DNA of 64,000 nucleotides from Desulfobacteraceae bacterium (GTDB lineage: Bacteria > Desulfobacterota > Desulfobacteria > Desulfobacterales > Desulfosarcinaceae), in contig JABDIN010000072.1 in assembly GCA_013003715.1 (NCBI GenBank), positions 1-64,000 on the forward strand, given 5' to 3'. Positions 32,340-52,743 of the stretch are shown here, piece after piece; the first letter of the stretch is position 1; each line of letters starts with the position of its first letter. A model generated the notes under the pieces. That model saw only the letters and a program-made list of their open reading frames with translations, was not told the DNA's origin and did no database searches. The translations under genes were made by a program, and so were the position numbers.

Positions 32340-32827
32340 ACAGAGGATCATCCACGCAAAAAAATCCGTAATGAATTGAAGTTGGAGCCAAAAACCACCT
32401 GCCCCTCCCTTCCGCCAAGCAAATGACCGGGCCGTTGCTGTCACCTCTGGGAATCAACGATGATCAACGAAATTGCCGAACAACACAACCTATCGTTATC
32501 TTTCTTTTTAGAAAGCGTTAAAGATTAAAAAAGACCTGTCGATATAAATGTCAGGCTTCCAACATTTTTAATATGCTGGGTGGTCGTTTCAACTTTTGCT
32601 GATGTAATCGTGAATTTGTTTAAGAATTCAGGTGTTACCTTCTTTTCGAGTTCACGTTGATACAGAATAGAGATAAGGATCTGGTTCCAAGACGCTCAGA
32701 GACAAGCTAGTTTCAATTGTTCATGCTACCTGCGAAATCCACCTTATATCCTCGTTTATCAGCCATATCCCCTGTGGAGTGTTGAATCGATCCCACCCGT
32801 ATGCCAGGCAAAAGAGACGAATCGATT
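32340..32827. other. Non-coding leader of the chemosensory locus
   Basis: No gene found. The left part shows no terminator with a clear T-run. At 32519-32545 there is a sigma-28-like promoter (listed separately), after which about 280 bases of AT-rich leader lead to the first chemosensory gene. Confidence 0.5.
32519..32545 (+). promoter_or_regulatory. Sigma-28 (FliA)-like promoter candidate
   Basis: TAAA (32519-32522), a 15-base spacer, then GTCGATAT (32538-32545) matches the flagellar/chemotaxis consensus TAAA-N15-GCCGATAA at 10 of 12 positions. Orientation is toward the chemosensory genes. The long distance (about 280 bases) to the first start codon is a caveat. Confidence 0.4.
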
Positions 32828-34039
32828 ATGATCTATTTCTGCGAAGAGTGTGGAGAACAGATAAGTCCCCCCCCCACGACGGGCAATGCAAAACAAGTCG
32901 TCCTGACCTGCGGAGGATGTAACGACTCCGTCATCGTTCCCCTGAACAATACGGCCGGACTGCGCCAGTCCACACCGGTGATGACCAATGCCCCGGATTC
33001 CCGGTTGAAGGTGTTGGTGGTAGACGATTCAAAATTTATACGGCGTGTAATCCGTGAAATCATCAACACCGATGGTTCGCTTCAGGTGGTCGGTGAGGCT
33101 GAAAATGGTGCTCATGCCCTGGAGCTGATTCCACAGCTCGATCCGGATGTGATTACATTGGACATCAACATGCCGGTGATGGACGGACTTACCACTTTAA
33201 AACACATCATGGTCAGGTTTCCGCGACCGACGGTAATGTTCAGCTCCCTCACCAAGGAAGGCGCAAGTACCTCTTTTGACGCCTTGAAATACGGTGCTGT
33301 GGATTTTTTGGAAAAGCCCTCGCAAATGCGCGATGAAGACCAGGAAAACCAACAGGCATCGATTATCGATAAAATAAAAATGGCGGCAGGGGTAAGACTC
33401 GGATCGATCCGTTTGATTCGAAGACAGAATCCACAAAAGGGAAAAGCGTCGGTATCCGCAGAATCCATTGACACCATTTACGCGATTGGAGCGGCTGAAG
33501 GCGGTTATGCAAGCCTCCTTCAGTTTCTTCCGCAACTGAAACCGGGTTCGCGGGCTGCGTATGTGGTGGTTTTATACGCAACGGCGGCACACCTACATGC
33601 CTTTACCGATTATCTGAACAATCTATGCTCAATTGAAGTTCGGCGTGCCGAACATGGAGGGTCTATTCGTGCCGGTGCCTGCTACATTACAGCCGGTAAT
33701 GAATATGTCACCCTTGAACCAAACGAGAATTCAATCACGCTTTCCGTGACCCCTTCTCCTTTTCCCGAAAGACGCGGTGCCATCAACATGCTTATGGTCT
33801 CACTTTCTGAAATGACGCAGGTTGCCAAGACCGGCGTTATACTGGCTGGAGACGGTGATGATGGCGTAGAAGGTCTTCTTGAAATAGAAAAAACCGGGGG
33901 AACTGCATTCATTCAGAATCCCGAAACATGCTTGTTTAAAAATATGGCAATGCTTGCCCACCAACGATGCGCTGCGGCAACGGTTGCGTCACCATCGGAG
34001 ATGGCAACAGCATTCAATCATGCACCAGACAACACTTAG
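32828..34039 (+). CDS. Zinc-ribbon / REC / inactive CheB-like protein
   Basis: 403 residues in three parts. Residues 1-40 form a zinc ribbon (CEEC at 5-8, CGGC at 28-31). Residues 60-185 are a receiver domain (acidic pair in LVVDDS, phospho-acceptor Asp112 in TLDINMPVMDG, Lys in FLEKPS). Residues about 215-400 have the CheB methylesterase fold, but the serine of GASTGG is Ala223 (GAAEGG) and the QH pair is LY (Tyr250); only the final Asp (Asp345, GDGDDG) remains. It should be phosphorylatable yet unable to demethylate receptors. The start ATG 32828 begins the zinc ribbon; an upstream in-frame ATG at 32801 is possible. First gene of the locus. Confidence 0.82.
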   Translation: MIYFCEECGEQISPPPTTGNAKQVVLTCGGCNDSVIVPLNNTAGLRQSTPVMTNAPDSRLKVLVVDDSKFIRRVIREIINTDGSLQVVGEAENGAHALELIPQLDPDVITLDINMPVMDGLTTLKHIMVRFPRPTVMFSSLTKEGASTSFDALKYGAVDFLEKPSQMRDEDQENQQASIIDKIKMAAGVRLGSIRLIRRQNPQKGKASVSAESIDTIYAIGAAEGGYASLLQFLPQLKPGSRAAYVVVLYATAAHLHAFTDYLNNLCSIEVRRAEHGGSIRAGACYITAGNEYVTLEPNENSITLSVTPSPFPERRGAINMLMVSLSEMTQVAKTGVILAGDGDDGVEGLLEIEKTGGTAFIQNPETCLFKNMAMLAHQRCAAATVASPSEMATAFNHAPDNT

Positions 34040-34057
34040 AAAATGTGGAGGATTACG

Positions 34058-36652
34058 ATGTTTTTTACAGCTGCTTTAAAAACCTTAAAGCTCAGACCCA
34101 AAATGCTTCTGGCCGGTATTACACTCTCTGTACTACCGGTATTGATTTTCGGAATTATCGTTTTTATTCAGGAAGAAGCTGCCACCAAAACTATTAATGC
34201 CGAAAATATGAAACTGGCCGTAGCCGAATTGGACCATATCGCCATCGGCGTTTATCAAATGGCAAAAACCCAGAATGAGCTACTCACCAAAAACCTCCGT
34301 TCATATCTAAGTATCCTGAGGCAGGAGTCAAAAGATCAGGGCGGTATTTCACTCAGTGCGGAGACAGTTAACTGGCGATCGATCAATCAGTACACAAAAA
34401 ATGCGAATTCCGTCTCCCTGCCGAAAATGATGGTGGGGGAAAAATGGTTGGGTAAAACAACGTCGCTGAACAGAAGCGTTAGCGTGGTGGATATCCTGAG
34501 ACGCCATGCGCCCGATGTTACCGCCACCGTATTTCAAAAAATGAATGTCAACGGTGACATGCTCCGGATTGCCACAAACGTAAAAAAGCTTGATGGCACA
34601 CGTGCCATCGGTACATACATCCCCGCCACCAATCCGGATGGACAACCGAATCCGGTTGTTTCCACGGTCATGAACGGGAATACCTTTCTGGGTCGTGCAT
34701 ATGTTGTAAATGCTTGGTATATTACCATATACGAACCAATTTATGACAATACACAACAAATTATCGGTATGCTGTATGCCGGTGTTCTCCAGGAGAGTAT
34801 TGCCAGTGTACGTGACGCGGTAATCAACACAGTGGTTGGTGACACAGGCTATGTTTACGTCATAGACAGCCTGGGCAACTATGTCATTTCCAAGGGCGGT
34901 GAGCGTGATGGCGCCAATATCTGGGGAGCTAAGGATGAAAATGACAACATGATTGTTCAGGACGCCATAAAAATGTCCAAAGGCACCAGTACCGGCAAAC
35001 TTGCCCAACAGGAATATTATTGGAAAAATCCCGGTGAAAAGGAATCACGTCTGAAAATTGTTCGTATCATTTATTATGAACCATGGGATTGGATTATTGG
35101 TGTGGGGTCCTATGAGGATGAATTTTTGAAAAGCATGAAGGTCATTGAAGAGATGGCAACCCGCGATGCCATCATTCTTGGTATTTTGCTCCTGATGACG
35201 TTGGCCGTATCCACATTTACCTGGCTGTTTATCTCCAAAGGTATTTCTGGACCCATCATTAAAATTGCGGATGTCGTAAATACCGTGTCTAAAACCAAAA
35301 ACCTCACCCTCCAGGTGCCTGTTGAAACCGAGGATGAAGTCGGCACTATGGCCCGGGAGTTCAACTCAATGATGAAACTTCTCCGCGAATCATTCAATGT
35401 TGTTTTGCGCGCCGCCATCGACGTCCGGGAATATGCTGCGGACGTTGCCAAAAGAGCGGGGTTGAACATGGAACGTGCCACCACTCAGGAAAAAATGATG
35501 CACGCCATGGAGCAAACCATTGCTGAAATGGGGCAGACCGCAGGTGAAGTTGCAATGGCGGCAGCGTCCCAGAAAGAGGCTGCTGAAAACTCAAACGAAA
35601 ACGTATCCAGCCTCATCGAAGGTATGTCCTCGGTGGCTGATGCGTCCTCAAAACAGTTGGATGAAGCCGGTATCGCAACAGACCGTGTTGGTGCCATGGG
35701 TGAAACCGGCTCAAAAGTTGTGGCAACAGCTCAACGACAGGGTGAGCAGGTCGTTACCGCAACATCAGCTGTGACCGAAATGGAACAGGCGGTTATAGAT
35801 TTGAACACGGCTGCGAACCAGGCCACCTTGTCAGGTGAAGAAGCACTAAAGGCGGTATCTCAGGGTCGTGATTCCGTTCATATGACAGCCGAAGGTATGA
35901 AGGCGATCGCAGATTCCTCGGAGCAGATATCCGAAATCATCACAGTTATTACGGACATTGCCGAACAGACCAATTTGCTGTCTCTGAATGCAGCCATCGA
36001 AGCTGCACGGGCCGGTGCCCATGGAAAGGGCTTTGCCGTTGTTGCCGATGAAGTCGGAAAACTGGCCCAGCGTTCCTCGGAAGCAGCCAAGGAAATCACC
36101 CAGTTGATCAAAGATTCAACTCTGCGGGTATCTGAGGGAACAAAGCTCTCTGACGAGTCTCGTCGCGCATTGGAGGAAATCGCGCGTGGTGGTGAGTCGA
36201 ATATGGCGGCAATTCAAGAAATTGCAAAAGCCTCCGAGCACTTGTCCCATGGTTCAAAAGCAGTCAATGAATTGATGCAGGAACTGAACCAACTGGCCGG
36301 GGAGATTGGGGGTATGGCCGGACAACAGGGTAAACGGCGTGAAGCCGCCCAGACAGCTCTCACCTCTCTTCAGGAAAAATCACATGCCATTTCAGAATTG
36401 GTGGCTTCAGCGGAAAACAGTGCCGCGTCCATTGGCGAACTGATGACCGGTGTTGTGGAAAGAACTTCCGGCATGACCGAAATGACCGGGAAACAGGCCG
36501 GACGTTCGAAAAAACTGATCGAAATTGCAAATGAGTCTTCCAGTGCTGCAAAACAGACACGGGAAGGTGCGGGTGATGTTGTTTCCATTACACAGAAACT
36601 GGAAGAACTGTCACAGGAACTTAACACTCAGGTGAATCAGTTTAAGGTTTAA
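34058..36652 (+). CDS. Methyl-accepting chemotaxis protein with Cache sensor
   Basis: 864 residues from ATG 34058, six bases after GGAGG. TM1 spans about 16-38 and TM2 about 371-391. Between them lies a large periplasmic Cache-type region ([33 protein letters not shown]). HAMP follows (about 392-445). A long coiled coil comes next, with the canonical kinase-contacting tip [20 protein letters not shown] and [18 protein letters not shown] near 626-670. There is no C-terminal CheR/CheB-docking pentapeptide. With no cheR in the locus, adaptation by methylation is doubtful. It is followed directly by cheW. Confidence 0.92.
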
Positions 36653-36663
36653 GGAGATGATCA

Positions 36664-37173
36664 ATGGAAACTGCCATTGCTAAAAAACCGGCGGAAAATA
36701 CGGCCAAGGACAGGCTGCTACAATTGGTGGGTTTTAAAATCGGTAAGGAAACCTTCGGTGTAAATATCTTAATGGTGCAGGAAATCATCCGCAAGGTAAA
36801 CATCACCAACATACCGGATTGTCCTGAATTCATCGAAGGTGTGATCAACTTACGGGGAAATATCATCCCTGTGATCGATCTAAGAAAACGGCTCAGATTA
36901 TATGATCCGGATAAATATGATGAAGGAAACTGGATTATTATCCTCAACATTCAGGGCCGGGTGACAGGGTTCATTGTGGACTCCGTTACAAAAGTACTGA
37001 AAGTACCACTAACGAGCTTCAGTCATCCACCGGACCTTGTGGTTTCAGGTCTCAAAAGCCACTATATTCACGGTGTTTGTAAAGTGGAAAAGGATCTTCT
37101 CATAATTTTGAATTTTGATCGTATTCTGCTGATAGATGAAATTAAAAAACTCAAGGAAATGAGAAGACACTAG
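36664..37173 (+). CDS. cheW: CheW-like coupling protein
   Basis: 169 residues with one CheW domain (LLQLVGFKIGKETFGVNILMVQEIIR, INLRGNIIPVIDLRKRL, FIVDSVTKVLKVP). It links the receptor tip to CheA. A short basic C-terminal tail follows. AAGGAG precedes ATG by 7 bases, and the gene lies 11 bases after the receptor gene, so the two are certainly co-transcribed. Confidence 0.92.
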   Translation: METAIAKKPAENTAKDRLLQLVGFKIGKETFGVNILMVQEIIRKVNITNIPDCPEFIEGVINLRGNIIPVIDLRKRLRLYDPDKYDEGNWIIILNIQGRVTGFIVDSVTKVLKVPLTSFSHPPDLVVSGLKSHYIHGVCKVEKDLLIILNFDRILLIDEIKKLKEMRRH

Positions 37174-37325
37174 TATATTGGCGGTATCATGAATCCTGCC
37201 CGATCGGTCTGACATTAGTCGGAAATGAAGAAGCGGTATAGTGTCCGAATGCGGAATATCTTCATCACATAATAGCCGGGAATCTGAGATTCTTATACAA
37301 CGACAATCTAGATGGAAACTGGATC

Positions 37326-37679
37326 ATGGGAAAACGAATATTAGTTGTTGATGACTCCTCCATTATGAGGAAAATGATAAAGGAAACACTTAGGCGTGGT
37401 GACCATGAGGTAATTGGTGAAGCCAAAAGTGGTGAAGATGCTGTCAAGCAATACTTGTCACTCGAACCGGATATTGTAACCATGGATATCACGATGAGAG
37501 GCATGGACGGACTTGCGGCAGCCCGGGAAATTTTCAAACAGGATAAAAACGCCCGTATCATTTTTTTGTCGAATCTGGATGAAAAAAAATATGGGGTACA
37601 AGCCTTGGAATTGGGTGCAGTCGGATATGTAAATAAACACAAATCCAAAAAAATATTGGATGTCATCGATACTATCTGA
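37326..37679 (+). CDS. cheY: CheY-like single-domain response regulator
   Basis: 117 residues, receiver domain only: LVVDDSSIMRKMI (acidic pair), VTMDITMRGMDG (phospho-acceptor Asp), IFLSNLDEKKYG (the usual Thr/Ser site is Ser) and the Lys of GYVNKHKSKK. No output domain, so it should work by protein contact, as CheY does, or as a phosphate sink. It sits between cheW and the membrane protein gene. Confidence 0.9.
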   Translation: MGKRILVVDDSSIMRKMIKETLRRGDHEVIGEAKSGEDAVKQYLSLEPDIVTMDITMRGMDGLAAAREIFKQDKNARIIFLSNLDEKKYGVQALELGAVGYVNKHKSKKILDVIDTI

Positions 37680-37694
37680 TTTTTTCAACAACCC

Positions 37695-38369
37695 ATGCAG
37701 TTAAACAACGGAAACCCGGAGCTTGAATTGAATCAAATGACTATGTCTCGATCACCATTTTCACCTGGAATAAACCTCACGATAGATGCGGATCTCAAGC
37801 ATCTATCCAGGGGCTCATCCATACGTTATACCGCCAGGATTGTTTTTGCCGTCATTTTTATATTTTTCATATTTTCCATAGGATTTTTTTTGTATTTCGA
37901 TGAAACCCTCAACAATATTTGGCCCTTGGGTGTCACAACCATGTTGATGGTTTTGACCGCTACAGGCTATTTATTTATCGAACTGTTCGTCTTCAGTCCG
38001 TTGGGAAAAATAGTAACCGCAGCCAGGAATATTTCTCACAGCAGACATGGTGGCGAGATCACCATCTCTGCTGAGAATGAGATCAATGTCATAAACGGCC
38101 TCCTTGAGGATATGATTGTGAATTTTCAGGAGATTATCCTTTATGTATGGAACATGACGGAAGAATCGATCGAAAACCTGAATTCGGTAGAGCAACTATC
38201 AATCGGAAAAAGTGATGGCGGACCAGATGAAACGACCATGGAAAATATAAAACAGGCTCATGATAATCTAGTTGAAATGAGATTGACCATGGAATCCATG
38301 AATTTATATGGTGTTCGATTTGAAGGTGGAAAAGCGCTGATTAAGGAAGACCCAAAATTACCGGACTGA
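37695..38369 (+). CDS. Two-TM HAMP-like membrane protein without output domain (1)
   Basis: 224 residues. A soluble N-terminus of about 45 residues precedes TM1 (about 48-68) and TM2 (about 77-99), separated by a very short loop. A HAMP-like segment then begins with FSPLGKIVTAARNIS, followed by about 80 residues ending in a charged tail. There is no kinase, cyclase or MCP signalling domain. Part of the cytosolic region resembles the second such protein at 46998 (NEI..I.GLLEDM..N.QEI.L...NM). Function unknown; a scaffold or signal-modulating partner of CheA or the receptor is possible. Located 79 bases upstream of cheA. Confidence 0.7.
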   Translation: MQLNNGNPELELNQMTMSRSPFSPGINLTIDADLKHLSRGSSIRYTARIVFAVIFIFFIFSIGFFLYFDETLNNIWPLGVTTMLMVLTATGYLFIELFVFSPLGKIVTAARNISHSRHGGEITISAENEINVINGLLEDMIVNFQEIILYVWNMTEESIENLNSVEQLSIGKSDGGPDETTMENIKQAHDNLVEMRLTMESMNLYGVRFEGGKALIKEDPKLPD

Positions 38370-38448
38370 TTACAACTCCCACAATTGTCGGCAATACACA
38401 GCAATTGTATGTTTATTACTTTTGAAAATACCTTAGAAGGGGAAAAAA

Positions 38449-41400
38449 ATGGCTGATATCTCTTTTCTTGAAGAATTTATCGCCGAAACACAGGATCACG
38501 TCAATGAGATGGAATCCAACTTGTTGCTTCTTAAAGATGCAGATGCAACCAAAGATCTCATTGATGATATTTTTCGCAGTGTTCATACGGTTAAAGGTTC
38601 CGCTGAGTATCTTGGAATGATCCGAATTGGCGGATTGTCGCATAGACTCGAGAATCTGCTGGATATTATCAGAAAAGACAAAATTGTGTGTGGTAAAGAT
38701 ATCATTGATATCTGTTTGGCTTCCATCGATCGTATAAACAAATTAATCAATGAGTTGAGCACATCACAGATCGAGTCAACCGACATCGAAGACCTCGTTG
38801 CCGATATCAATGAACTGATTGAACGAATAAAACCGGGGGAGGGTGACCAACCACTCGTTGATAATATCACTGAATCAACTGTTTTCGAGAACGATTCGGA
38901 ATCCGTGAACGCCGTCGCTACCGGCGAAGAGACCATCATCATCGAGGATGAAGACGTAGATGAAGAGTTAATGCAAATATTCATCGATCGTTTGGTGACA
39001 GGTTTTGATGAAATTCATGATCTTTCAAGGTTGACAGCCGGCAGTAAAAAGGGATCCAAACAAGCAATCGAAAAATGCGGTGCCGTAGTTGAATCCCTGA
39101 AATCATCCGCAAATTACATGGGGTATGCCTCCCTTTGCCAACTATATGAACAATGGTTGGCGGATATTTCTGATCTTGAAGAACCGGCTTCATCAGGATC
39201 ACTTGCACCGAAGCTTATCGTTGACACTTTACAGCCATACATGGAGAAGATAGCATCCATCTTTCCTGACGTTCAGCTGAAAACACAAATTGAGATTCCA
39301 TTACCAACCCCTCAATCACCTGCACAGAATTCAATTGTGAGCGAAAGCTTCGAACTTGATGAACCGGAGATCGGCCTGGATCAAGATCAAGATTCAGATG
39401 AGATTTTAGACGGGAATGATTTTTTTGATCTTATGCCCGAATCCGATGAAGGTCTGACCGAAGAAGCATCCGCAGCAGTATCTGATGAACAAATTTCATT
39501 TGAAGATGAGGACCTGAGTTTTGATGATCTGCTGGACGGTGATGAACCCGAAACCACATTAGAATTCGACAAACCGACCGACAATGCCCTGCTCGAAGAT
39601 TTCATTGACGAATCATCCGAACATCTTCAGGACATGGAATCCACGCTGTTGAAACTTCATGATTCACCTTCGGACAGTGAATTGATCAATGATGTATTCC
39701 GGGTTATTCACACGATAAAAGGATCTTCCGAATACATGGGGCTGAAAAATATTGCCCGGCTCTCTCACCATCTGGAAAACCTTCTCGATCTTATCCGTAG
39801 TGAAAATCGACTTATATCCGAAGAGGTCATTGATCTTCTGATTGACGCCAAAGACATATTATCGGCACTTCTGGACAACATGGAAGGACCGGAAGAAGCA
39901 ATGGATCTCGAGCCTATTCTATGCAGAATTCAAACTGCAACGGGAAACGACGAGCCCGCTGATTCGGTAGCGCCTGATAATCGTACGGCTGAGACGTCAG
40001 TTGACACATCACTGGATTCAGACTTTTTTGCACTTCTAAATGAGGATTATGATACCGAACTTTTTACCATTTTTCAGGATCAACACAAGGATGTCCTCGG
40101 CTTAATTAAAACTGAAGTTACTCAATTAGAAAAGAACGACAACCCGGCAGATAACTTGACCAATTGTTTAGCGCATGTGAACCAGTTGATATCCTCTGCA
40201 AATTATATGGGTTATGATCCACTTTGCGCACGATACGAAAAATGGGCTGCTGAAATTCAAGATCGAATTGACCGGTGTGAATCTGAATCATCGCCCGGCA
40301 TTGATGAATTTCTTAAAACAGTGATGACACCAGCCATTGATAAATTGATCCATCTTACCGATGCGGTCAACAATCTTACCCAGGGAGAACCAAAGTCGGA
40401 TGAGGCGGAGAATGACGAATTATATCTTGAAGAAATAGATAACAGCGCTGACAATACGGAAAACGCAACCGCCGAAACTTCCGAAGAGACCGCCGAGATC
40501 AAGGACGCAGAAACTTCCGATGATATTAATGAAGAATCTTCTTCACCTGATACGAGTGATTCCGAGGATACGGATGAACTATTTCGAAAATTAGATGGTG
40601 CCTTTGACCAGAGTATGATGCAGCTCGATGTGGAGTTGGACACTGCAGAAAGCGAAGGCATGGTCACCGATCTGTTTTCCAGTGAAAAAGATGTCCATTC
40701 CGTCCCCGAACAACCCATTGATGAAGAACCCGGATATAGTTCCGCATCAACTGATTCGGTTGATCATCTGGAATTGTATGCCGCCGGGTCCGAACCTGAA
40801 AACAAAGCGGGTTCCGGAACGACGGTCGATAATCCAGAGATGGAAGCCATTGATCAGGCTTCTGACGAACCGGTCGATGAACTTGAAATCAATGCAGCCG
40901 ATCCGGGGTCTGACGAACCGGCCGATGCAATTGAAATGGATGCCGCTGAAAAAGATGAAGATCCTGCCATCGAAGCGGATAACCCCGTTTTCGATTTTGA
41001 TGAAGGCGCTGGGGATGAGCATTCCGACACCGCCGACAATTTTGATTCAGCAGCCGATGATACCGTGACAGATGCCATCGATCCGGAGTCTGATACACCG
41101 GTGAATGCTGCCGGTCCGGGCTCTGAAGCACTGGTCCGGGAACCTGAGGGAGATACCGCCGGAACAGATGCAGATTCTGCCATCGAAGCAGCAAACCCTG
41201 TTTTCGATTTCGACGAAAACATTGAGGGCGAGCCTTTCGACACTGCCGACAGGTTTGATACAGCAGCTGATGATACCGGCATGGATGCCGTCGATCCGGA
41301 GTCTGATACACCGGTGGATTCCACTGGAATGGATACCACCGGTCCGGGACCTGAAGCACTGGTCCATGAACTTGACGGAGATGCGGCCGAAACTGATGCA

Positions 41401-43284: not shown

Positions 43285-43336
43285 AATAAGAATCGATATA
43301 CCAAAATGGAAATAGCCCTGTCTACCCAACCAGCAT

Positions 43337-44764
43337 ATGATGGAGATTCAACCAGAGATGTCCATGCCGTCCGATCATAAGGATGAGGGTTTTGCCGGAA
43401 CCCTGCGGAATCTCCACCTGACGGACATCATACAGATGTGTTGCCTGTCCGTGACGACCTTGGGAATTCGTGTGATGAAGGATGAAAAGGAGGGGGAAAT
43501 TATCATCCGTGACGGGGACATCGTGCACTCACAGGTCGGAAATATTACCGGTGAGGAAGCCTTTTACACCATAATGTGTTGGAAGAGCGGCAATTTTGAA
43601 AGCATCGATGTTGACCCGTCATCACCTAAAACCATCCAGCGGCATTATCAGTTTCTTATCATGGAAGCGGCCCGTCGAATGGATGAAAAAGACGAATCCA
43701 GGGAAGTCGGGACCAGGGAAGAGAAACTTCGAGTGATGATCGTTGACGACTCTTCGGTCATGTCCAGAATACTGACCGCGACCTTCACCGCGGAAGGTGA
43801 TATCGATGTTGTGGGTGTTGCCCGGAATGGTGAAGAAGCACTTGAAATGATAGACGCCGTCAAGCCCGATCTAATCACCTTGGACATGAATATGCCGGTG
43901 ATGGACGGAAAATCGGCCCTGAAACATATTATGATAAAAACACCATGTCCTGTGGTGATCATGAGTAATGTAGGTTCGGCCACCCAAAATACGGTCATGA
44001 AATTTCTGGAACTCGGTGCTGTTGATTTCATGAGTAAGCCGGTAAAAAATGAAAGTATACTCATCCAGCAGGAAATGATTGTAAAGCGGCTGCATCGTGC
44101 CGCCAAGGGAAGGATCAACCTTTTCAGAAGGACACAACCACCGCCTGTAGTTCCCCAGGACAAAAAGAAGGCAATTGGTAATGTCGGTTTCGATTCACTG
44201 GTGGTCGTCAATGCCGGGGCGGGAGCGCATTCCTATGTCATCCATTTACTGGCGGATATATGCAAGGAAATCGATTCGGGGCTCATCGCCCTGCAAACTC
44301 TTCCCCCCCAGTTGGTCCATTCACTCCCGGATTATTATAACCAGCGATGCAGCTATCAAGTGGAATCAGTTGAGGAACGGACGAAATTGGTCAGTAACAC
44401 ATGCTTCCTGATGTCCAATGGGGTTCCGGTGAATGTTGAAACAGGCGCCGAGGGATATTTCCTTCTTCCCGGCAAAAGTATGAATTCAATTACCTCCAAT
44501 AACGATCAATTTCTAACGGATCTGGCGGAGCATTACCATGGTGAAATTTTCATGCTTCTCCTGTCCGGAGCGGAGATCGGACAGCTTGAGGGATTGAAAC
44601 GAATAAGGGAAAACAGCGGTACGATTATCATCCAGGAGCGTGATACCTGCATGATCCGCGATCCCTTGGATATCGTATCGAAAGAAAAAATGGTGGACAT
44701 GGAAGTGAAAGTCAATGAAATGGCATCACTTTTAAAAAAAATGATACAAAGTTCCGGGGATTGA
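43337..44764 (+). CDS. PATAN(DUF4388) / REC / fully degenerate CheB-like protein
   Basis: 475 residues. Residues about 18-100 match the PATAN/DUF4388 domain (FAGTLRNLHLTDIIQM, GEIIIRDGDIVHSQVG). A receiver domain follows (IVDDSS at 135-140, phospho-acceptor Asp183 in TLDMNMPVMDG, Lys in FMSKPV). The last 190 residues align with CheB, but all three catalytic positions are lost: NAGAGA replaces GASTGG, LQTLPP replaces the QHMP motif, and GAEIGQ replaces GMGNDG. No methylesterase activity is expected. ATG 43337 is used; the ribosome site is weak and 43358 is an alternative. Confidence 0.82.
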   Translation: MMEIQPEMSMPSDHKDEGFAGTLRNLHLTDIIQMCCLSVTTLGIRVMKDEKEGEIIIRDGDIVHSQVGNITGEEAFYTIMCWKSGNFESIDVDPSSPKTIQRHYQFLIMEAARRMDEKDESREVGTREEKLRVMIVDDSSVMSRILTATFTAEGDIDVVGVARNGEEALEMIDAVKPDLITLDMNMPVMDGKSALKHIMIKTPCPVVIMSNVGSATQNTVMKFLELGAVDFMSKPVKNESILIQQEMIVKRLHRAAKGRINLFRRTQPPPVVPQDKKKAIGNVGFDSLVVVNAGAGAHSYVIHLLADICKEIDSGLIALQTLPPQLVHSLPDYYNQRCSYQVESVEERTKLVSNTCFLMSNGVPVNVETGAEGYFLLPGKSMNSITSNNDQFLTDLAEHYHGEIFMLLLSGAEIGQLEGLKRIRENSGTIIIQERDTCMIRDPLDIVSKEKMVDMEVKVNEMASLLKKMIQSSGD

Positions 44765-44881
44765 CAAATTACATATTTAGGATCGGGTGAAACCTGAATT
44801 ATCGTTTACCGTCCGAACACTTAGACGTCATTGGATATTAAGGAATAAACTTTTTTACGATCAATGATTGAGTAGGTTGTT

Positions 44882-45937
44882 ATGAGTGAAAAAATTAAAG
44901 TATTAATTGTGGATGATGCTCTTTTCATGAGAAAAGCCATAACCGAGATCATCGAATCAGATCCGGAGCTCGAAGTTGTGGATACCGCCAAGAACGGTTT
45001 GGTGGCTCTGGAAAAAATACGATTGTTGAAACCTGATGTCATTACGCTGGATATGGATATGCCGCTGATGGATGGATTGACTTGTATCCGGCATATTATG
45101 ATCAATTGTCCCGTGCCAATCGTCGTCCTCAGCTCCATGTTCGGAGACGGTGCCACTACCTTCGACGCGTTGCGTCTGGGTGTAGTGGATTTCGTCCCCA
45201 AACCCTCCGGGGCAGTGTCCCGGGATATTGAAACCGCTAAAAAGTTGATCATAGACCGCATAAAAATAGCCGCCGGCGTCAATATGGAAAACATACGGCG
45301 GGTTCGACTTGAAATGATCGATCCGAGATGGTCTTCGCCGAAACAGGGTCCGGACGAAGTGCCTCACTATATTCTCACCCTGGGAACCAGCCTGAGCGGT
45401 CCAAACACGGTAATACGCCTGATATCCCAATTACCGTCATCATTACCGACAGCGGTTGTTGTCGTTCAGGAGATATCAAACCATGTATTGCCCTCGTTCA
45501 CCAAAAAGTTCAATGAGCATACGGCCTGGCAGGTGAACGTCGTAACGGATAACCTCCGATTAAAACCCGGCACCTGTTATATTCACAGCAATGAGAACTC
45601 ATTACTCATCGAGTCCGATGCCCAAGGCAAACCGATCATGTCTATAAAGGAGCACCGCAGTAAACCGCTTGACCATCTTTTTAATTCAGCAGTGGATGTG
45701 TTTGGCCCCTACACCATCGGCATGATGCTCACCGGTATCGGCAGCGATGGTGCAGACGGGTTCAGAAAAATTCGGGAAAACTCCGGCTTCACCATCGCCC
45801 AGAACCAGCAATGCTGTGTTTATCCGAACCTTACGGATAATGTTATCAACCAGGGATTGGTTGATTTCGTGCTTGATGAGAGACAACTACCGGAAACCAT
45901 CGAAAAAATCGTAACCGATGGTGTCATGGCTGCATGA
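44882..45937 (+). CDS. REC / CheB-like protein lacking the catalytic histidine
   Basis: 351 residues in the standard CheB order. Receiver (LIVDDALFMRK, phospho-acceptor Asp57 in TLDMDMPLMDG, Lys in FVPKPSG), then a methylesterase domain from about 160. Ser170 (GTSLSG) and Asp289 (GIGSDGADG) are retained, but the catalytic His is Glu197 (VVVQEIS instead of VVQHMP). It is therefore the least degenerate of the three CheB-like proteins, yet still probably inactive. No N-terminal extra domain. It lies between the second CheB-like gene and parA. Confidence 0.85.
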   Translation: MSEKIKVLIVDDALFMRKAITEIIESDPELEVVDTAKNGLVALEKIRLLKPDVITLDMDMPLMDGLTCIRHIMINCPVPIVVLSSMFGDGATTFDALRLGVVDFVPKPSGAVSRDIETAKKLIIDRIKIAAGVNMENIRRVRLEMIDPRWSSPKQGPDEVPHYILTLGTSLSGPNTVIRLISQLPSSLPTAVVVVQEISNHVLPSFTKKFNEHTAWQVNVVTDNLRLKPGTCYIHSNENSLLIESDAQGKPIMSIKEHRSKPLDHLFNSAVDVFGPYTIGMMLTGIGSDGADGFRKIRENSGFTIAQNQQCCVYPNLTDNVINQGLVDFVLDERQLPETIEKIVTDGVMAA

Positions 45938-45957
45938 AGAAATAGTGTATCCGACGA

Positions 45958-45976
45958 TTTGCATTATCGATGCAAA
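45958..45976. promoter_or_regulatory. Small inverted repeat before the ParA gene
   Basis: TTTGCAT (45958-45964) and ATGCAAA (45970-45976) form a perfect 7-bp inverted repeat with a five-base loop, 12 bases before the ParA start codon. An operator or a hairpin that modulates the ribosome site is possible. Confidence 0.3.
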
Positions 45977-45988
45977 TGGAGAAAAATA

Positions 45989-46930
45989 ATGATTATTGTA
46001 TGCCAACAATGCGAGACTAAATTTCATCTTGATGATAATCGTGTATCAAAGAACCGTTTTCTGGTTCGATGCACGGAATGCAATGCCATATTTACCGCGT
46101 ATAAACCTGTCCGGGTGCAGGAAATTCGATTCATTGAACTTGATCGTGCCAGATCCACAGAACCGCTTCCGCGCATTATCGCCATCAGTAATCAGAAAGG
46201 AGGCGTGGCCAAAACCTCCACCTGCCTGAACCTCGGTATGGCACTGAGCTTAATGAAGAAAAGGGTTTTGCTGATTGATTTTGATGTTCAGGCGAATCTC
46301 TCCATTTCCTTGGGGTATCGCAATCAACCCTCATTTTACGATGCGGTAAATGCGTTTGACACACCGATGAGTTCATATATTACCAAAACCCGGTATACGG
46401 GGCTTTATCTTCTGCCCTCCAACAAAAACATGGTACTGCTCAATAAAAAATACTTCGGAGCCCAAAATTTCGAATATATATTAAAAGATCGTCTTGGAAG
46501 TGTTGTTGACGAGTATGATTATATCCTGATCGACACCCCCCCATCGATTGAATTTTTCACACTCAATGCACTCAGTGCAGCCGGATTGGCCATCATCCCA
46601 AGCCAATGTGATTATTTATCGACCCATGGAGTAGATCAAATATTACGGCTCATAAAACTCATCCGTGGAAAAACCAATCCGGGTATCAAGGCCCGGATCC
46701 TCATTACCATGTTCGACCGTGCCAACGTGGCGTCGAAAGTCATATACACCAAATTGCGGAAGATGTATCAGGGGAGAACATTTGATACAGCCATCGATCT
46801 GGACTGTAAAGTGAAGGAAGCACAGATAATGAGTGTTCCGGTCGCTCACTATGATGGCCAAAGTACGGCTGGACGGCAGTATTCGGATTTGGCCAGGGAG
46901 CTGATTGAAACACGGAGCAAGGCGGCATGA
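45989..46930 (+). CDS. Zinc-ribbon ParA-family ATPase
   Basis: 313 residues. The first 40 are a zinc ribbon (CQQC, then CTEC) of the MJ0042 type. The rest is a ParA/MinD ATPase: deviant Walker A SNQKGGVAKTSTCLNLG, Walker B-like VLLIDFDVQANLS, and the switch DYILIDTPPSIEF. Related ParA proteins (PpfA, ParC) position chemoreceptor arrays in other bacteria, which fits its place among che genes. The start is ATG 45989 behind GGAG. The stop overlaps a 21-codon ORF (46927-46992) that may couple translation to the next gene. Confidence 0.85.
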   Translation: MIIVCQQCETKFHLDDNRVSKNRFLVRCTECNAIFTAYKPVRVQEIRFIELDRARSTEPLPRIIAISNQKGGVAKTSTCLNLGMALSLMKKRVLLIDFDVQANLSISLGYRNQPSFYDAVNAFDTPMSSYITKTRYTGLYLLPSNKNMVLLNKKYFGAQNFEYILKDRLGSVVDEYDYILIDTPPSIEFFTLNALSAAGLAIIPSQCDYLSTHGVDQILRLIKLIRGKTNPGIKARILITMFDRANVASKVIYTKLRKMYQGRTFDTAIDLDCKVKEAQIMSVPVAHYDGQSTAGRQYSDLARELIETRSKAA

Positions 46931-46997
46931 CAACTCCGGAAACCTTCAATTGTCCGATGCCGGTGCGGTGGGTGTACCGCGGACTGCGGTAATTCAA

Positions 46998-47633
46998 ATG
47001 ACAATACCATCTGCGGCCTCATCATATACCCTTCAACGGATAATGATCATCTATTTCCTGCTCATTGGTGCCGCGTCATTGATGATGGGTGTCGAATTCC
47101 TTGCCGACACTCAAAGTAAAGGCATCGAAAAAGCTATCCTGGTTGAATTTCAAAACTACTCGGATGGTAAGGTAAACGGTGATGAAATTTTTAAACCGAT
47201 TCAACGGCTGCGTAGTAAAGCTATTCTGATGATCGGTGTCATCATGCTGGTAATCGTAATCGTACTCACGATGTTTATCAAAAATATTACCGAACCCCTG
47301 CAACACATGATTGAAACGGTCAGAGAAATATCAGCAGGAGATCTAAGCCGAACCGTACGAATACACTCCAACAATGAATTGGCCATGTTAGGCACGGTGA
47401 TCAACGAAATGTCCACCAACCTACAGGAAATCCTCGTTTTAACCGGAAATATGTGCGACACCGGACGGCAACTTTTTGAAACGACCAACGATTTAATAGA
47501 CACGAAAAAGCTGCCCGAATCGGATCTCATAGCGTTAAAAACGGCAATGGATCGTCATCATTCCGAGGTGATGATGATCACTGATGTCCTCGCGTATTTC
47601 AATTTCTATTCGGTGGAAAAAAAAGATGCCTGA
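46998..47633 (+). CDS. Two-TM HAMP membrane protein without output domain (2)
   Basis: 211 residues from ATG 46998. TM1 is about 15-35, then a short extracytoplasmic loop of about 38 residues, TM2 about 74-94, and a clear HAMP domain (NITEPLQHMIETVREISAGDLS, NELAMLGTVINEMS). The C-terminal 60 residues carry no recognised output domain. It resembles the 37695 protein just after HAMP (INEMSTNLQEILVLTGNM). The 3' end overlaps the TauE-like gene by eight bases, so the two are translationally coupled, suggesting the HAMP protein reports on the permease or shares a complex with it (inference). Confidence 0.72.
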   Translation: MTIPSAASSYTLQRIMIIYFLLIGAASLMMGVEFLADTQSKGIEKAILVEFQNYSDGKVNGDEIFKPIQRLRSKAILMIGVIMLVIVIVLTMFIKNITEPLQHMIETVREISAGDLSRTVRIHSNNELAMLGTVINEMSTNLQEILVLTGNMCDTGRQLFETTNDLIDTKKLPESDLIALKTAMDRHHSEVMMITDVLAYFNFYSVEKKDA

Positions 47634-48387
47634 TGAAGCTTGGTTGTCTTTTCCGGTTGGCATTATAATTGCCACAGTGGTCTCATCCGTGGGCATCGGC
47701 GGCGGTATTCTCTGGATGCCCTTTTTCCTGATCATTTTAAAAATGCGTCCCGAAACCGCCGTTTTGACGTCCCTTATGATTCAAACCGCCGGAATGGGAT
47801 CAGGCAGCGTGGCTTACCTGATAAAGAAAAGAGTGGACATACCATTGGCAACCCTCTGGCTGGTCGTCACGATACCCGGGATCGCTATCGGTGCCATACT
47901 GGTACAGACGATTTCCTCGATGCATTTGGAACTGGTGTTAGGCGCCATTACGCTAATGACCGCTTTTTTGTTTGTCTCCGCCAATCAAAAGTATACGGAT
48001 CGTGGCAAGGATCGGGTGGCGGTCAGAACAGCCGCACCTTACTGCTGGACCGTCGGTTTTTTCGCTGTTGGCAGCGGCATGCTCAGCGTCAGCATCGGCG
48101 AATGGCTTATCCCCATCATGCGGGGGAAAATGACCATGCGTATGCACGTCGCCGTGGCCACGAGCATATTTACGATATTCGGCACCTGTATCGTCGGTGT
48201 AAGCACGCACTTGATGTTGGGGGGAAATCCTTATGTCCCGGCAGTACTTTGGGGTGTTCCCGGTGTCATTATCGGGGGACAGATCGGTCCGAGGATAGCC
48301 GAAAAAATTAACGAACGATGGTTAAAAGATATTTTCATTTTTATGCTGACCTTGATTGGTATTCATCTGATTTACAACTCTTATTAG
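47626..48387 (+). CDS. TauE/SafE-family (sulfite/sulfonate-type) permease
   Basis: 253 residues with about eight membrane helices in two repeats. The signature is SSVGIGGGILWMPFFLIIL in the first half and GMLSVSIGEWLIP in the second. Family members move sulfite, sulfoacetate or related anions, usually outward. ATG 47626 overlaps the HAMP gene by eight bases; longer in-frame starts would overlap it further. Followed after 25 bases by an ABC permease gene. Confidence 0.85.
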   Translation: MPDEAWLSFPVGIIIATVVSSVGIGGGILWMPFFLIILKMRPETAVLTSLMIQTAGMGSGSVAYLIKKRVDIPLATLWLVVTIPGIAIGAILVQTISSMHLELVLGAITLMTAFLFVSANQKYTDRGKDRVAVRTAAPYCWTVGFFAVGSGMLSVSIGEWLIPIMRGKMTMRMHVAVATSIFTIFGTCIVGVSTHLMLGGNPYVPAVLWGVPGVIIGGQIGPRIAEKINERWLKDIFIFMLTLIGIHLIYNSY

Positions 48388-48412
48388 CTTGTGCTGAAAA
48401 CTAACGGCAAAT

Positions 48413-49204
48413 ATGAATTCACGTCTTGTAGGTAATATTAGAAATATTATAAATTCAGTGTTTTGGCCCATGGTGACCTTCATTGTGCTTTTCGGTGTAT
48501 GGGAGCTTATTCACCGATTCGGCACCTGGAGTGATCAGGTTTTTCCAAGTCCGTTTGTTGTATTGACCAGCCTGAAGGATCTCTTCGAAAATGGCACCTT
48601 GGTTAAACACATGGTGGCCAGTTTATACCGTGTCACCATCGGATTCTATGCCGCGGTGCTCGTCGGTATTCCAGCCGGCATATTGATGGGCCGGCTCGAG
48701 TTTGTCGGAAAGCTGTTGAATCCATTGCTGCAGTTTCTACGCCCGATTTCACCTTTGGCCTGGATCCCCCTGGCGATGTTATGGTTCGGCATTGGCGATG
48801 TACCGGCGATTTTTCTCATTTTTCTTTCGAGTTTTTTCCCTTTGGTCGTATCCACCATAGCGGCGGTTAAATCAATTAATCCGATATATTTTCAAGTCGC
48901 CGCAAATCTAAACTTCAATACCTGGGAAGTAACGACAATGATCACCTTGCCGGCCATCCTGCCGTCGGTGATTACCGCCCTGAGAATTTCCATAACGATT
49001 GCCTGGCTTGTGGTCGTCGCTGCCGAAATGATAGCGGTGCAATCCGGTTTAGGTTACTTGATCCTGGATTCCCGCAATGCCTTGAGAATGGACTATGTAA
49101 TGGCCGGAATGATTGTAATTGGTGCCATCGGATTGGTCCTGGATTTTTTAATGCGGCAATTGGAAAGAATAGAATCCGTTCAATGGGGAACACAAAAAAA
49201 GTAG
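48413..49204 (+). CDS. ABC transporter permease, NitT/TauT family
   Basis: 263 residues with six helices. The EAA-like loop is TMITLPAILPSVITALRISI. The N-terminal LWELIHRFGTWSDQVFPSP and LLNPLLQFLRPISPLAWIPLAMLWFGIG are typical of SsuC/TauC/NrtB-type permeases for sulfonates, taurine, nitrate or thiamine precursors. Forms one importer with the two genes downstream. Confidence 0.9.
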   Translation: MNSRLVGNIRNIINSVFWPMVTFIVLFGVWELIHRFGTWSDQVFPSPFVVLTSLKDLFENGTLVKHMVASLYRVTIGFYAAVLVGIPAGILMGRLEFVGKLLNPLLQFLRPISPLAWIPLAMLWFGIGDVPAIFLIFLSSFFPLVVSTIAAVKSINPIYFQVAANLNFNTWEVTTMITLPAILPSVITALRISITIAWLVVVAAEMIAVQSGLGYLILDSRNALRMDYVMAGMIVIGAIGLVLDFLMRQLERIESVQWGTQKK

Positions 49205-49214
49205 GTGCCGTGGT

Positions 49215-50012
49215 ATGTCCCGGATAGAAATACAACAATTGACCAAGCAATACCTGAATCGCAGAGTTCACCCACGGAGTGGGGATGACCCGGCTATCAA
49301 ACCGGGTGACACTTTCGATGTGATCAGCGCATTGGATTTGAATTTCAACAATGGCGAAATGGTATGCATTTTAGGGCCGTCCGGTTGCGGCAAATCCACG
49401 ATGCTCCGCATCATTGCCGGATTCGATGTCCCCTCATCCGGACAGGTGCTGATCGATGGCAGGAAAGTCAGGGAACCCGGTACCGACCATATTTTCGTTT
49501 TTCAACAAAATGGTTTGCTGCCCTGGATGACGGTTTGGGATAATATCGGGTTAGGTCTTCGGCACATGAAAGATAAAACGGAAAAAGAATCGACAATAAC
49601 CGAATTCATCGAAATGGTCGAACTCGATGGATTCGAACATCATTATCCGCACCAGCTTTCCGGTGGAATGCAACGCCGGGCGGAGCTTGCCCGCGCACTT
49701 GCCGTAAACCCGAATCTACTGATCATGGATGAACCTTTCAGCGGCCTGGATTTTCTGACCCATATGAAAATGCGTGAAGAAGTGGTCAATATGCATGAAT
49801 ATCTCCGAAAGACAACACTGGTGGTTACCCATGACATAGATGACGCGCTGATCATGGGTGACCGGATTGTCGTGCTCAGCAGCAGTCCGGCGACCGTTCG
49901 CCTGGATTGCCACCTCGATTACGACCGACCGCGTGATTTTGAGAAATTACCGGAATTGAGTCAGCTGCGCAGTGAAATCTTTTTTATGTTGGGTGTGAAT
50001 TATGCGGTTTGA
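49215..50012 (+). CDS. ABC transporter ATPase, NitT/TauT family
   Basis: 265 residues. Walker A GPSGCGKSTMLR, Q-loop VFQQNGLLPWM, signature LSGGMQRRAELARAL, Walker B LLIMDEPFSGLD and the H-loop VVTHDIDDA are all intact, and the order matches SsuB/TauB. Residues 10-30 contain a short polar insertion (HPRSGDDPAIKPGD) between the first beta strands. It overlaps the binding-protein gene by 11 bases. Confidence 0.92.
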   Translation: MSRIEIQQLTKQYLNRRVHPRSGDDPAIKPGDTFDVISALDLNFNNGEMVCILGPSGCGKSTMLRIIAGFDVPSSGQVLIDGRKVREPGTDHIFVFQQNGLLPWMTVWDNIGLGLRHMKDKTEKESTITEFIEMVELDGFEHHYPHQLSGGMQRRAELARALAVNPNLLIMDEPFSGLDFLTHMKMREEVVNMHEYLRKTTLVVTHDIDDALIMGDRIVVLSSSPATVRLDCHLDYDRPRDFEKLPELSQLRSEIFFMLGVNYAV

Positions 50013-51066
50013 TTTTGGTCAACGATTTGGTTTTATCATGACACCGGCACGGTGGGTCGGCTTGTTATCGATTCTCTGGATCATATTCATCTGCCTTCTG
50101 CATTTCCATAACGTTGCTGCCGTCTCTTCCGTTCAGGTCGTCCGTATGGGATATATGCCTGTCATATCCAACTTGGCTGCCCCGATCCTGGATCATGTCA
50201 GCAGAAAAAGTAAAGAAATCCGTTTCGAAACCATCAAGTTCTCATCATTCGCTGAAATGGCGGAAGCACTCCGAAACAACAATATTGATGCGGCATTTAT
50301 GATCGCACCGCTATCCATTGTCCTGCGTCAGCAAAAAGAAGATATTAAAGTAATATATATCGGCAACCGCCATGAGAGCACACTCGTAGCGCGCAAGGAA
50401 TTGAATGCCGCTAAGATTGAAGACCTCATCGGAAAAACCATCGCGGTTCCCATGAGATACTCCGGCCACAACATCGGCTTGAATCTGCTGCTCGAACAGC
50501 ATTTATTGCAAGGTAAAATCAACATTGTTGAGATGAATCCCCCGGACATGGCATCGGCCCTGGCGGCCGGGAGCCTGGACGCGTATTTTGTCGGGGAGCC
50601 GTTCGCGGCACAAACCCTTAAAAGCGGCGATTCACGGCGGATTCTGTATGTGGAGGAATTGTGGGATAAGTTTATCTGCAATCTTACGATTGTCAAAAAG
50701 GAGTTTATCCAGCGGAATCCGGAAGCTGTCCGATTGCTTGTCCAGGGTGCCGCCAGATCCGGCGTCTGGGCGTCCAAGAACCCCAAAGCGGCGGCAAACA
50801 TCGCTTCCATGTATTGGAACCAGCCACAGGAACTCGTCCACTATGCCCTTACAACACCGGAAAAACGTATCATATATGATCAATTCATCCCACTCGATAC
50901 GGAATTACAATACCTTGCCGATCTCATGACCAGATACGGCCTATTGGAATCCAATAATATAGACGGGCTGGTGGACGGTCAATTTGCAGCCGCAGCAAAT
51001 ACAAGGAATGTAACCGATTTGAAGAGCATCCTCGAGCCCCACCCCATTGACCTGTCAAGCCGATAG
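50002..51066 (+). CDS. ABC substrate-binding protein, NMT1/SsuA-like
   Basis: 354 residues with an N-terminal hydrophobic segment (about 17-40), either a signal peptide or an anchor; an uncleaved anchor is suggested by the absence of a clear signal-peptidase site. The mature part is a SsuA/NMT1-like fold: VRMGYMPVISNLAAP, AEALRNNNIDAAFMIAP, AAGSLDAYFVGEPFAAQ. The ligand is unknown; family members bind nitrate, taurine, alkanesulfonates or pyrimidine precursors. ATG 50002 lies within the ATPase end; ATG 50038 is an alternative. It is convergent with pruA, leaving only 22 bases between stops. Confidence 0.85.
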   Translation: MRFDFGQRFGFIMTPARWVGLLSILWIIFICLLHFHNVAAVSSVQVVRMGYMPVISNLAAPILDHVSRKSKEIRFETIKFSSFAEMAEALRNNNIDAAFMIAPLSIVLRQQKEDIKVIYIGNRHESTLVARKELNAAKIEDLIGKTIAVPMRYSGHNIGLNLLLEQHLLQGKINIVEMNPPDMASALAAGSLDAYFVGEPFAAQTLKSGDSRRILYVEELWDKFICNLTIVKKEFIQRNPEAVRLLVQGAARSGVWASKNPKAAANIASMYWNQPQELVHYALTTPEKRIIYDQFIPLDTELQYLADLMTRYGLLESNNIDGLVDGQFAAAANTRNVTDLKSILEPHPIDLSSR

Positions 51067-51088: not shown

Positions 51089-52717
51089 TCACCCCATCGA
51101 TGGATACCGATAGTCTGTGGGCGCTGAAAATGATTCTTTTATCGTCCGCGGGCTGGTCCACCGCAATAAGTTCAGATGGGAACCTGCCTTGTCGTTCGTG
51201 CCGGATTTCCGTGATCCACCAAAGGGCTGTTGACCCACAACGGCGCCCGTGGGTTTATCGTTGACATAAAAATTACCGGCCGCGTTTCGCAGCACGGACC
51301 TCGCTTTAGCTACGGCATGGCGATCTCCGGCGAATACGGCACCGGTCAAGGCGTACCCGGAGGTCTCATCGCAGAGCTGCAGTGTTTTCCCGTAATCGCC
51401 GTCATCATATACGTAAACCGTCAGCACGGGGCCGAATATCTCCGCTTCCATGGTGATAAAGTGCGGATCGGTGGTGAGGATTACCGTGGGTTCGATGAAA
51501 AATCCCCTGGTGGCGTCGCTACCGCCGCCGGTTACTATTTGCGCCTTGTCGGAGGCCTTGGCCCGGTCAATAAAACCGGTGATGGTGCGGAACGCTTTTT
51601 CATCGATGACCGCGTTCATGAAATTGGAAAAGTCGGTGACATCTCCCATGGGGATACTCCCCACCGCATCGATAAATCTATCGCGTATACTGTTCCAGAA
51701 GGTCCGTGGCACGTACATCCGTGAGGCGGCACTGCATTTTTGCCCCTGATATTCAAACGCCCCCCGGATGGCGGCGGTGATCACGGATTCCGGGTCCGCC
51801 GAATCATGGACCATGATAAAGTCCTTGCCGCCGGTTTCACCGACGATGCGCGGATAACTGCGATAGGCGTCGATATTGCCGCCGATGCGTTGCCAGATGT
51901 CGTTGAAAACATGTGTCGAACCGGTGAAATGAACCCCGGCGAGGTGCGGATTCGCCAGAACCGGGTCCCCAACCTCTCCGCCGCTGCCCGGCACAAAATT
52001 GATGACGCCATCCGGCAGGCCAGCCTCCTTGAATACCTGCATCAGGTAATAACCGGATAAAACAGCTGTCGATGCAGGCTTCCACACAACGGTGTTGCCC
52101 ATGACGGCCGGCGCCGTGGCGAGATTCCCGGCAATGGCCGTAAAATTAAACGGGCTGACGGCGAATACAAATCCCTCCAGCGGCCGGTAATCCAATTGAT
52201 TCCAGATCCCCGGCGAATTGATCGCCGGTTGAACGCCGTAAATCTGTTGCATGAAGTGTACATTGAACCTGAGAAAATCCGCCAGCTCACAGGCGGCATC
52301 GATTTCCGCCTGAAATGCATTTTTGCCTTGATTGAGCATCGTCGCCGCATTCAGCGTATACCGGTATGTTGTGGAGATCAGATCCGCCGCCCGGAGAAAT
52401 ATCGCAGCCCGGTCACTCCAGTGCATGGCTTCCCAGGCCGGTTTTGCCGACAACGCCGCTGAAATGGCCGATTCGGCTTCCCCTGAACCGGCTTTTTGAT
52501 ATCGGGCCAGAACGTGTTGATGGTTGTGGGGACAGATGGATCGGCCCATATTTCCCGTTGAAACGGATTGCCCCCCGATGATCAAGGGCACTTCCGCTTC
52601 ATGTTGCATCTGTCGCCGCAATTCCGCCTGGAGAAGTTCTCTCTCCGCAGTACCCGGCGCATAGGTGAGCACCGGTTCGTTTGCCGGAGTTGGTGTATTA
52701 AAAAAGGTATTATTCAC
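51089..52717 (-). CDS. pruA: L-glutamate gamma-semialdehyde dehydrogenase
   Basis: 542 residues, the monofunctional 1-pyrroline-5-carboxylate dehydrogenase type. It oxidises glutamate semialdehyde to glutamate with NAD+, the second step of proline breakdown. SPFNFTAIAGNLATAPAVMG, HFTGSTHVF, GETGGKDF (catalytic Glu) and FEYQGQKCSAASR (catalytic Cys) are visible, with a C-terminal PFGGSRKSGTNDKAGS. No proline dehydrogenase domain is fused or adjacent, so the semialdehyde may come from ornithine or from elsewhere. It follows the ALDH7-type gene by 26 bases on the same strand. Confidence 0.93.
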   Translation of the reverse strand: MNNTFFNTPTPANEPVLTYAPGTAERELLQAELRRQMQHEAEVPLIIGGQSVSTGNMGRSICPHNHQHVLARYQKAGSGEAESAISAALSAKPAWEAMHWSDRAAIFLRAADLISTTYRYTLNAATMLNQGKNAFQAEIDAACELADFLRFNVHFMQQIYGVQPAINSPGIWNQLDYRPLEGFVFAVSPFNFTAIAGNLATAPAVMGNTVVWKPASTAVLSGYYLMQVFKEAGLPDGVINFVPGSGGEVGDPVLANPHLAGVHFTGSTHVFNDIWQRIGGNIDAYRSYPRIVGETGGKDFIMVHDSADPESVITAAIRGAFEYQGQKCSAASRMYVPRTFWNSIRDRFIDAVGSIPMGDVTDFSNFMNAVIDEKAFRTITGFIDRAKASDKAQIVTGGGSDATRGFFIEPTVILTTDPHFITMEAEIFGPVLTVYVYDDGDYGKTLQLCDETSGYALTGAVFAGDRHAVAKARSVLRNAAGNFYVNDKPTGAVVGQQPFGGSRKSGTNDKAGSHLNLLRWTSPRTIKESFSAPTDYRYPSMG

Positions 52718-52743
52718 TGCATTATCCTTTTAATATTATCGTT

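Follow-up and report, generated by a model that had tools for sequence, protein, structure and literature searches.

Chemosensory arrays are usually understood as receptors that operate with methylation feedback. In the cytoplasmic cluster of Rhodobacter sphaeroides (CheA3/CheA4), a ParA homologue named PpfA adjoins the che genes. The CheA3 protein of this species has degenerate Hpt domains (PMC10782961). Here we compare such systems with a block of genes at positions 32801-51066 of a 64,000-nucleotide stretch of DNA from a Desulfobacteraceae bacterium (assembly GCA_013003715.1, contig JABDIN010000072.1, positions 1 to 64,000), which is called the window below. Every gene of the block is on the + strand, and its limits, as judged from open reading frames (ORFs) and Pfam matches, are the start of a CheB-like gene and the stop of a gene for a substrate-binding protein (SBP). 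The best explanation of the block as a whole, to which we give about even credence, is that it encodes a conserved array that needs no receptor methylation and includes an importer of the NitT/TauT type.

Several features are shared with chemosensory systems of the type IV pilus (Tfp) class, such as Pil-Chp of Pseudomonas aeruginosa (with ChpA) and tax1/tax3 of Synechocystis. These include a multi-Hpt CheA and a PATAN-like domain on a response regulator (PMC7690835). Some Hpt domains of ChpA lack the histidine, and multi-Hpt CheA proteins of the Tfp class usually have a C-terminal REC domain (PMC10782961), which is absent from the window CheA. Unlike Tfp-class systems, the locus has no CheR and no identified pil genes, and it includes three CheB-like proteins with mostly incomplete catalytic triads, an ATP-binding cassette (ABC) importer and ParA. 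A che operon with a parA homologue is also described for a sulfate reducer, Desulfovibrio vulgaris (the cheA3 operon, DVU2072), in which mutation of cheA3 leads to a motility-halo defect (PMC3944678). This operon is not known to contain importer, HAMP-only or CheB-trio genes. In contrast to the R. sphaeroides cytoplasmic cluster, the receptor of the locus is transmembrane with a Cache sensor, and the importer and the pseudo-CheB proteins are additional.

The importer shares its SBP fold and its permease and ATPase families with SsuABC, TauABC, NrtABCD and CmpABCD. However, its SBP is kept beside a chemosensory operon and is apparently anchored by an uncleaved helix. Similarly, the CheB-like proteins have the REC domain, the C-terminal CheB fold and the phospho-acceptor Asp of CheB methylesterases, but the Ser/His/Asp triad is incomplete in all CheB2 proteins, nearly all CheB3 proteins and most CheB1 proteins. 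No description of the locus was found in the open-access literature, most subscription papers being outside the search. If the explanation is true, a system kept widely in one phylum would provide a natural example of methylation-free adaptation and of uptake wired to a kinase, and the joining of nutrient uptake to cell behaviour in such a way appears to be undescribed.

Conservation of the block

The gene order in the window is CheB1 (with a zinc ribbon), the chemoreceptor (MCP), CheW, CheY, HAMPa, CheA, CheB2 (DUF4388/REC/CheB), CheB3, ParA, HAMPb, TauE, ABC permease, ATPase and SBP. Homologues of CheB2 with high scores are found in 22 other genomes of the same family, and their neighbourhoods have the same order of CheB1, CheW, CheY, CheA, CheB2, CheB3, ParA, HAMPb, TauE, permease, ATPase and SBP, with several of these neighbourhoods stopping early at contig ends. 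The exceptions in the family are one genus (g3) that lacks CheB3 and five genomes without a recognised HAMPb/TauE pair. In some loci of the family the receptor is unrecognised or is placed ahead of CheB1. The block, including the importer, also recurs in about 10 further families of the order and, elsewhere in the phylum, in family f114. The genes that flank it in the window (PGI, NUDIX and aldehyde dehydrogenase) are not kept beside it in relatives. Since different genera and families share the gene order but not the flanks, the association of these genes is beyond chance.

A survey of 389 genomes of the order gives a similar picture. The SBP clade, defined by a cut-off of E 1e-60, occurs in 49 of these genomes as a single copy each, and it is sharply bounded because even its weakest match (E 4e-134) is far past the cut-off. 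CheB2 is also present in 49 of the 389 genomes, and 41 genomes are common to the two sets. The SBP and CheB-like matches are located close together on one contig in 37 of the 49 SBP-bearing genomes, and several of the remaining 12 are at contig ends. In addition, in all 33 genomes examined the start codon (ATG) of the SBP gene precedes the end of the ATPase gene by exactly 11 bases, which points to translational coupling.

In the window this overlap covers positions 50002-50012, and a second overlap of exactly 8 bases joins HAMPb to TauE (TauE ATG at 47626, HAMPb stop at 47631-47633). Both overlaps had been given at these lengths by the first-pass annotation of this DNA, and all of the genes that it named are found by ORFs and Pfam on the same (+) strand. 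Its left edge at 32519 has to be moved, because there are stops in frame at that position and the first ORF begins at 32801. Scans for promoter-like sites (29, versus 31.2 in shuffled sequences) and terminator-like sites (24, versus 19.9 with a standard deviation of 4.0) give no clear excess and are thus uninformative on the limits of the operon.

These comparisons argue that the locus is almost certainly one conserved functional unit. The annotation had proposed that the transport genes are part of the sensory unit, with the reservation that the importer might not be kept beside the che genes in relatives. It is kept there, and the proposal is borne out by the synteny, the invariant 11-nucleotide overlap and the genomes shared by SBP and CheB2. 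The possibility that the transport genes are mere neighbours of the che genes is ruled out by the conserved synteny.

Some more distant loci have a different composition. In loci such as those of G453, G514 and G704, only CheB3-CheB1-CheB2 and CheA are retained, and in G144, G084 and G142 the block is rearranged with its genes still linked. The simplest reading of the distant loci would be an older che core that later gained the importer.

Receptor, kinase and CheB-like proteins

The chemosensory core is complete at the locus, with an MCP signalling domain, CheW, a CheA that has HATPase and CheW domains, and CheY. The receptor (34043..36652, +) has a Cache_3-Cache_2 sensor, a HAMP domain and a long MCP signalling domain, as assigned from Pfam, heptads and a motif scan. 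It is followed by CheW (36664..37173, +; PF01584, 120 bits) and by a CheY-like single-domain response regulator (37326..37679, +), identified by Pfam and sharing 58-66% identity with its counterparts in relatives. Each arm of the cluster receptor comprises about 30 heptads, or roughly 58-64H, and six other receptors of the same genome have about 21 heptads per arm (about 42H).

CheA (38449..43284, +) is a protein of 1611 amino acids with Hpt motifs, a very acidic linker (31% Asp/Glu) and dimerisation, HATPase and CheW domains. Its Hpt motifs at amino acids 45 and 420 include the His, and those at amino acids 214 and 577 lack it. The motif has the form HTIKGSSEYLG, which in many CheA members alternates with His-less copies such as LGTLKSSANYMG, and the CheA proteins of relatives have up to six Hpt motifs in one protein. 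Pfam gives no P2 match and no REC (Response_reg) match in the window CheA, at its C terminus or elsewhere. A survey of CheA proteins left open the role of His-less Hpt domains (PMC10782961), and the locus might serve to find out what degenerate CheB and Hpt domains do. The acidic linker also includes an in-frame tandem repeat (window 41111-41547) with a period of 228 bases (76 amino acids).

CheB1 (32801..34039, +) has an N-terminal CxxC...CxxC zinc ribbon, whose cysteines are conserved in the family, followed by REC (Pfam, 86 bits) and CheB_methylest (118 bits) domains. Its true start is probably at 32828, as indicated by the conserved start MI[LI]FCEECG. CheB2 (43337..44764, +) is composed of DUF4388, REC and pseudo-CheB domains according to Pfam, a triad alignment and an AlphaFold model, and CheB3 (44882..45937, +) of REC and pseudo-CheB domains according to Pfam and the triad alignment. 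The first-pass annotation had listed three REC/CheB-like proteins. All three are present, but each is better described as a CheB of full-length architecture whose catalytic site is damaged.

When read from an alignment with Escherichia coli CheB as reference (S164, H190, D286), the triads in the window are A-Y-D for CheB1, G-T-G for CheB2 and S-E-D for CheB3, none of which is complete. The CheB2 triad is complete in none of 43 homologues, comprising 23 family copies and 20 more distant ones. The CheB3 triad is complete in only one of 34 (0/14 in the family and 1/20 among more distant copies), and Glu replaces the catalytic His in all 14 family copies. The single intact CheB3 is from G401, whose locus also carries a CheR-like gene found by tblastn, the only such gene among the related loci compared. 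The CheB1 triad is mixed, with 5 of 35 copies complete and 30 having lost it. The phospho-acceptor Asp56 is kept in every aligned CheB copy shown. The CheB proteins of the window score below the NCBIfam CheB cut-offs. However damaged the triad of CheB2, its AlphaFold model (mean pLDDT 80.0) matches full-length CheB 1a2o (Z 33.1, root-mean-square deviation (rmsd) 2.9, 332 residues aligned) and 6ymz (Z about 33), and therefore the CheB fold is kept. From the residues at the catalytic positions we infer that the pseudo-CheB proteins have lost esterase activity.

There are two more che clusters in the genome of the window (G000; loci L002, L004-L010 and L015), on contigs C9 and C57. The C57 cluster has CheA, CheW domains and a receptor. 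The C9 cluster has CheA and CheW, and it holds the only CheR and the only intact CheB of the genome, which adjoin each other. This CheB keeps the motifs that an active enzyme should have, namely GISTGG, QHMP and TGMGSDG. The annotation correctly noted that no cheR is present within the locus, and the one cheR on C9 rules out that the organism as a whole lacks this gene.

The array is probably independent of methylation. A motif scan finds the methylation consensus in none of 20 cluster receptors and in four of the six other receptors of the window genome, which served as a control. Three points count against methylation independence. The consensus is strict and misses two of these six ordinary receptors, and so the scan is weak evidence alone. 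The five CheB1 copies with a full triad make residual esterase activity possible in some species. Finally, the CheR and CheB from C9 could in principle act on the receptor of the locus. A different view is that the locus is a conventional, flagellum-steering chemotaxis operon that relies on the CheR and CheB of the C9 cluster, which would suit a genome that has FliM, one CheR and an intact CheB on C9. However, the receptor of the locus measures about 60H and lacks methylation motifs, unlike the receptors of about 42H elsewhere in the genome, which mostly have them, and a receptor of a given length class normally pairs with a kinase of the corresponding class. The system also persists in genomes that lack FliM, and we consider a conventional operon very improbable.

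Importer, membrane proteins and ParA

The set of genes for a NitT/TauT importer is complete, with a permease of the BPD_transp_1 family (48413..49204, +; PF00528), an ABC ATPase (49215..50012, +; PF00005) and an SBP with the NMT1/SsuA fold (50002..51066, +; NMT1_2 in Pfam). The Walker A/B and signature motifs of the ATPase, as read in the sequence, are intact, and its best NCBIfam models are SaoA and NtrCD, both below cut-off. The nearest structure to the predicted SBP model (mean pLDDT 90.4) is 3un6 (Z 34.4, rmsd 2.3, 283 residues aligned), which is also nearest in a sequence search. Next are CmpA (2i48, Z 32.2) and NrtA (2g29, Z 32.0), and then TauA and SsuA. The SBP passes no NCBIfam ligand model, scoring 133.9 bits versus 163.5 for SsuA_fam and 74.3 versus 304.25 for the taurine SBP.

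The SBP begins with a hydrophobic helix of the pattern WLxxIS.LH..LN, which is conserved beyond the family. No cleavage or lipobox motif is seen by eye in this N-terminus, distant genomes included, and the helix likely stays as an uncleaved membrane anchor. This anchor, the loss of CheB catalytic residues and the absent receptor methylation motifs are points that the first-pass annotation did not contain.

HAMPb (46998..47633, +) is a membrane protein with a HAMP domain near its end (PF00672, 46.8 bits; alignment) and a short C-terminal stretch. It precedes a TauE/SafE-type permease (47626..48387, +; PF01925, 138 bits). HAMPa (37695..38369, +), located between CheY and CheA, is a membrane protein with a HAMP-like region that is recognised by weak similarity to HAMPb and by its position. 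Of the two HAMP-only proteins that had been annotated, HAMPb is upheld, but Pfam gives no significant HAMP match for HAMPa itself. HAMPa is weakly conserved, and a HAMP-only protein between CheY and CheA is kept outside the family and lost in most of the family. In one locus (L301, G120:C18), HAMP and TauE-like genes are located between CheY and CheB2, and a second CheB2-CheB3-ParA set is on the opposite strand.

ParA (45989..46930, +), assigned by Pfam, motifs and PDB sequence matches, has an N-terminal MJ0042 zinc ribbon in which C5, C8, C28 and C31 are invariant. Its deviant Walker A motif (KGGVAKT) is also invariant and its best PDB sequence matches are ParA and Soj. By this motif and its family sequence, the protein belongs with the positioning ATPases of the ParA/Soj type.

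Signal flow and output

The conserved components suggest how the system might operate. The long Cache receptor, CheW and CheA would form an array that is positioned by ParA. A second input would be supplied by the membrane-tethered SBP, the importer and the HAMP-only proteins, such that ligand binding or transport alters kinase activity. CheA would then phosphorylate four proteins, CheY and the three with REC and pseudo-CheB domains. These three would act as phospho-switched binding proteins rather than demethylases and may replace methylation feedback. Perhaps CheB2, with its DUF4388 domain, relays the output to a machine at the cell surface, for which the best candidate is the type IV pilus motor. 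That the transporter serves as an input to the kinase is plausible, at somewhat less than even confidence. The full scheme, in which a methylation-free array receives signals from the tethered SBP and importer via HAMP-only adaptors to the multi-Hpt CheA, and three former esterases stand in for methylation feedback and convey the output, is tentative and on balance doubtful.

Coupling between importer and kinase, physical or functional, is proposed here from gene order, which is silent on the direction of signalling. This weighs against the scheme, as do loci of families f86 and f127 that have the che core and ParA-like, HAMP or TauE genes and no ABC importer. The importer is therefore not needed for the core. 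Perhaps the genes are only co-regulated, the importer taking up the compound sensed by the Cache receptor, with co-expression, no signalling contact and an SBP used for transport alone. Operon-like spacing would suffice for this, the ABC components look intact and the che cores without an importer agree with it, but the conserved HAMP-only proteins by the transport genes and the conserved membrane helix of the SBP would be superfluous for plain transport. We regard co-regulation alone as rather unlikely. The signal might also run in the reverse direction, with phosphorylated CheY or pseudo-CheB gating the ABC transporter or TauE, so that uptake is regulated and not movement. None of the four REC proteins has an obvious flagellar partner, the transporter is among the most constant parts of the block and genomes without FliM keep the system. 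However, cores that lack the importer would need another output, and Pfam reveals no regulatory domain on the ABC ATPase, leaving this arrangement distinctly less probable.

FliM is absent from 21 of the 49 SBP-bearing genomes, 11 of which are at least 90% complete, with two of these 11 consisting of a single contig. Thus, flagella are not required for output. There is no association of the system with FliM either way (28/49 SBP-bearing genomes versus 189/340 others, p = 0.88 by a Fisher test that is only illustrative because related genomes are not independent samples), and on that basis a flagellar output is neither claimed nor excluded. The annotated label of a non-flagellar array holds in that some genomes with the system lack FliM, but flagellated genomes, including that of the window, carry it too.

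A pilus as the output is suggested only tentatively, and by analogy. DUF4388 is also called PATAN. In cyanobacteria, response regulators of the PATAN type act on the pilus motor PilB1 (PMC7690835), and two PATAN proteins of Myxococcus are listed beside type IV pilus regulators (PMC11580455). The genes identified in these clusters include no pilus gene. PilT is present in the window genome and, across the order, in 307 of 321 genomes. This near universality fits a pilus output and does not discriminate in its favour.

Two further features of the window are outside the block. A pair of neighbouring aldehyde dehydrogenase genes (51089-54276, -), with LysR and cupin/HTH regulators next to come, are located right after the block and are not beside it in relatives. 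In a stretch of about 17.8-21.2 kb that is without a listed ORF of at least 150 amino acids, there is an Rfam match to the group II intron domain D1-D4-1 (20147-20227, -; 39.7 bits).

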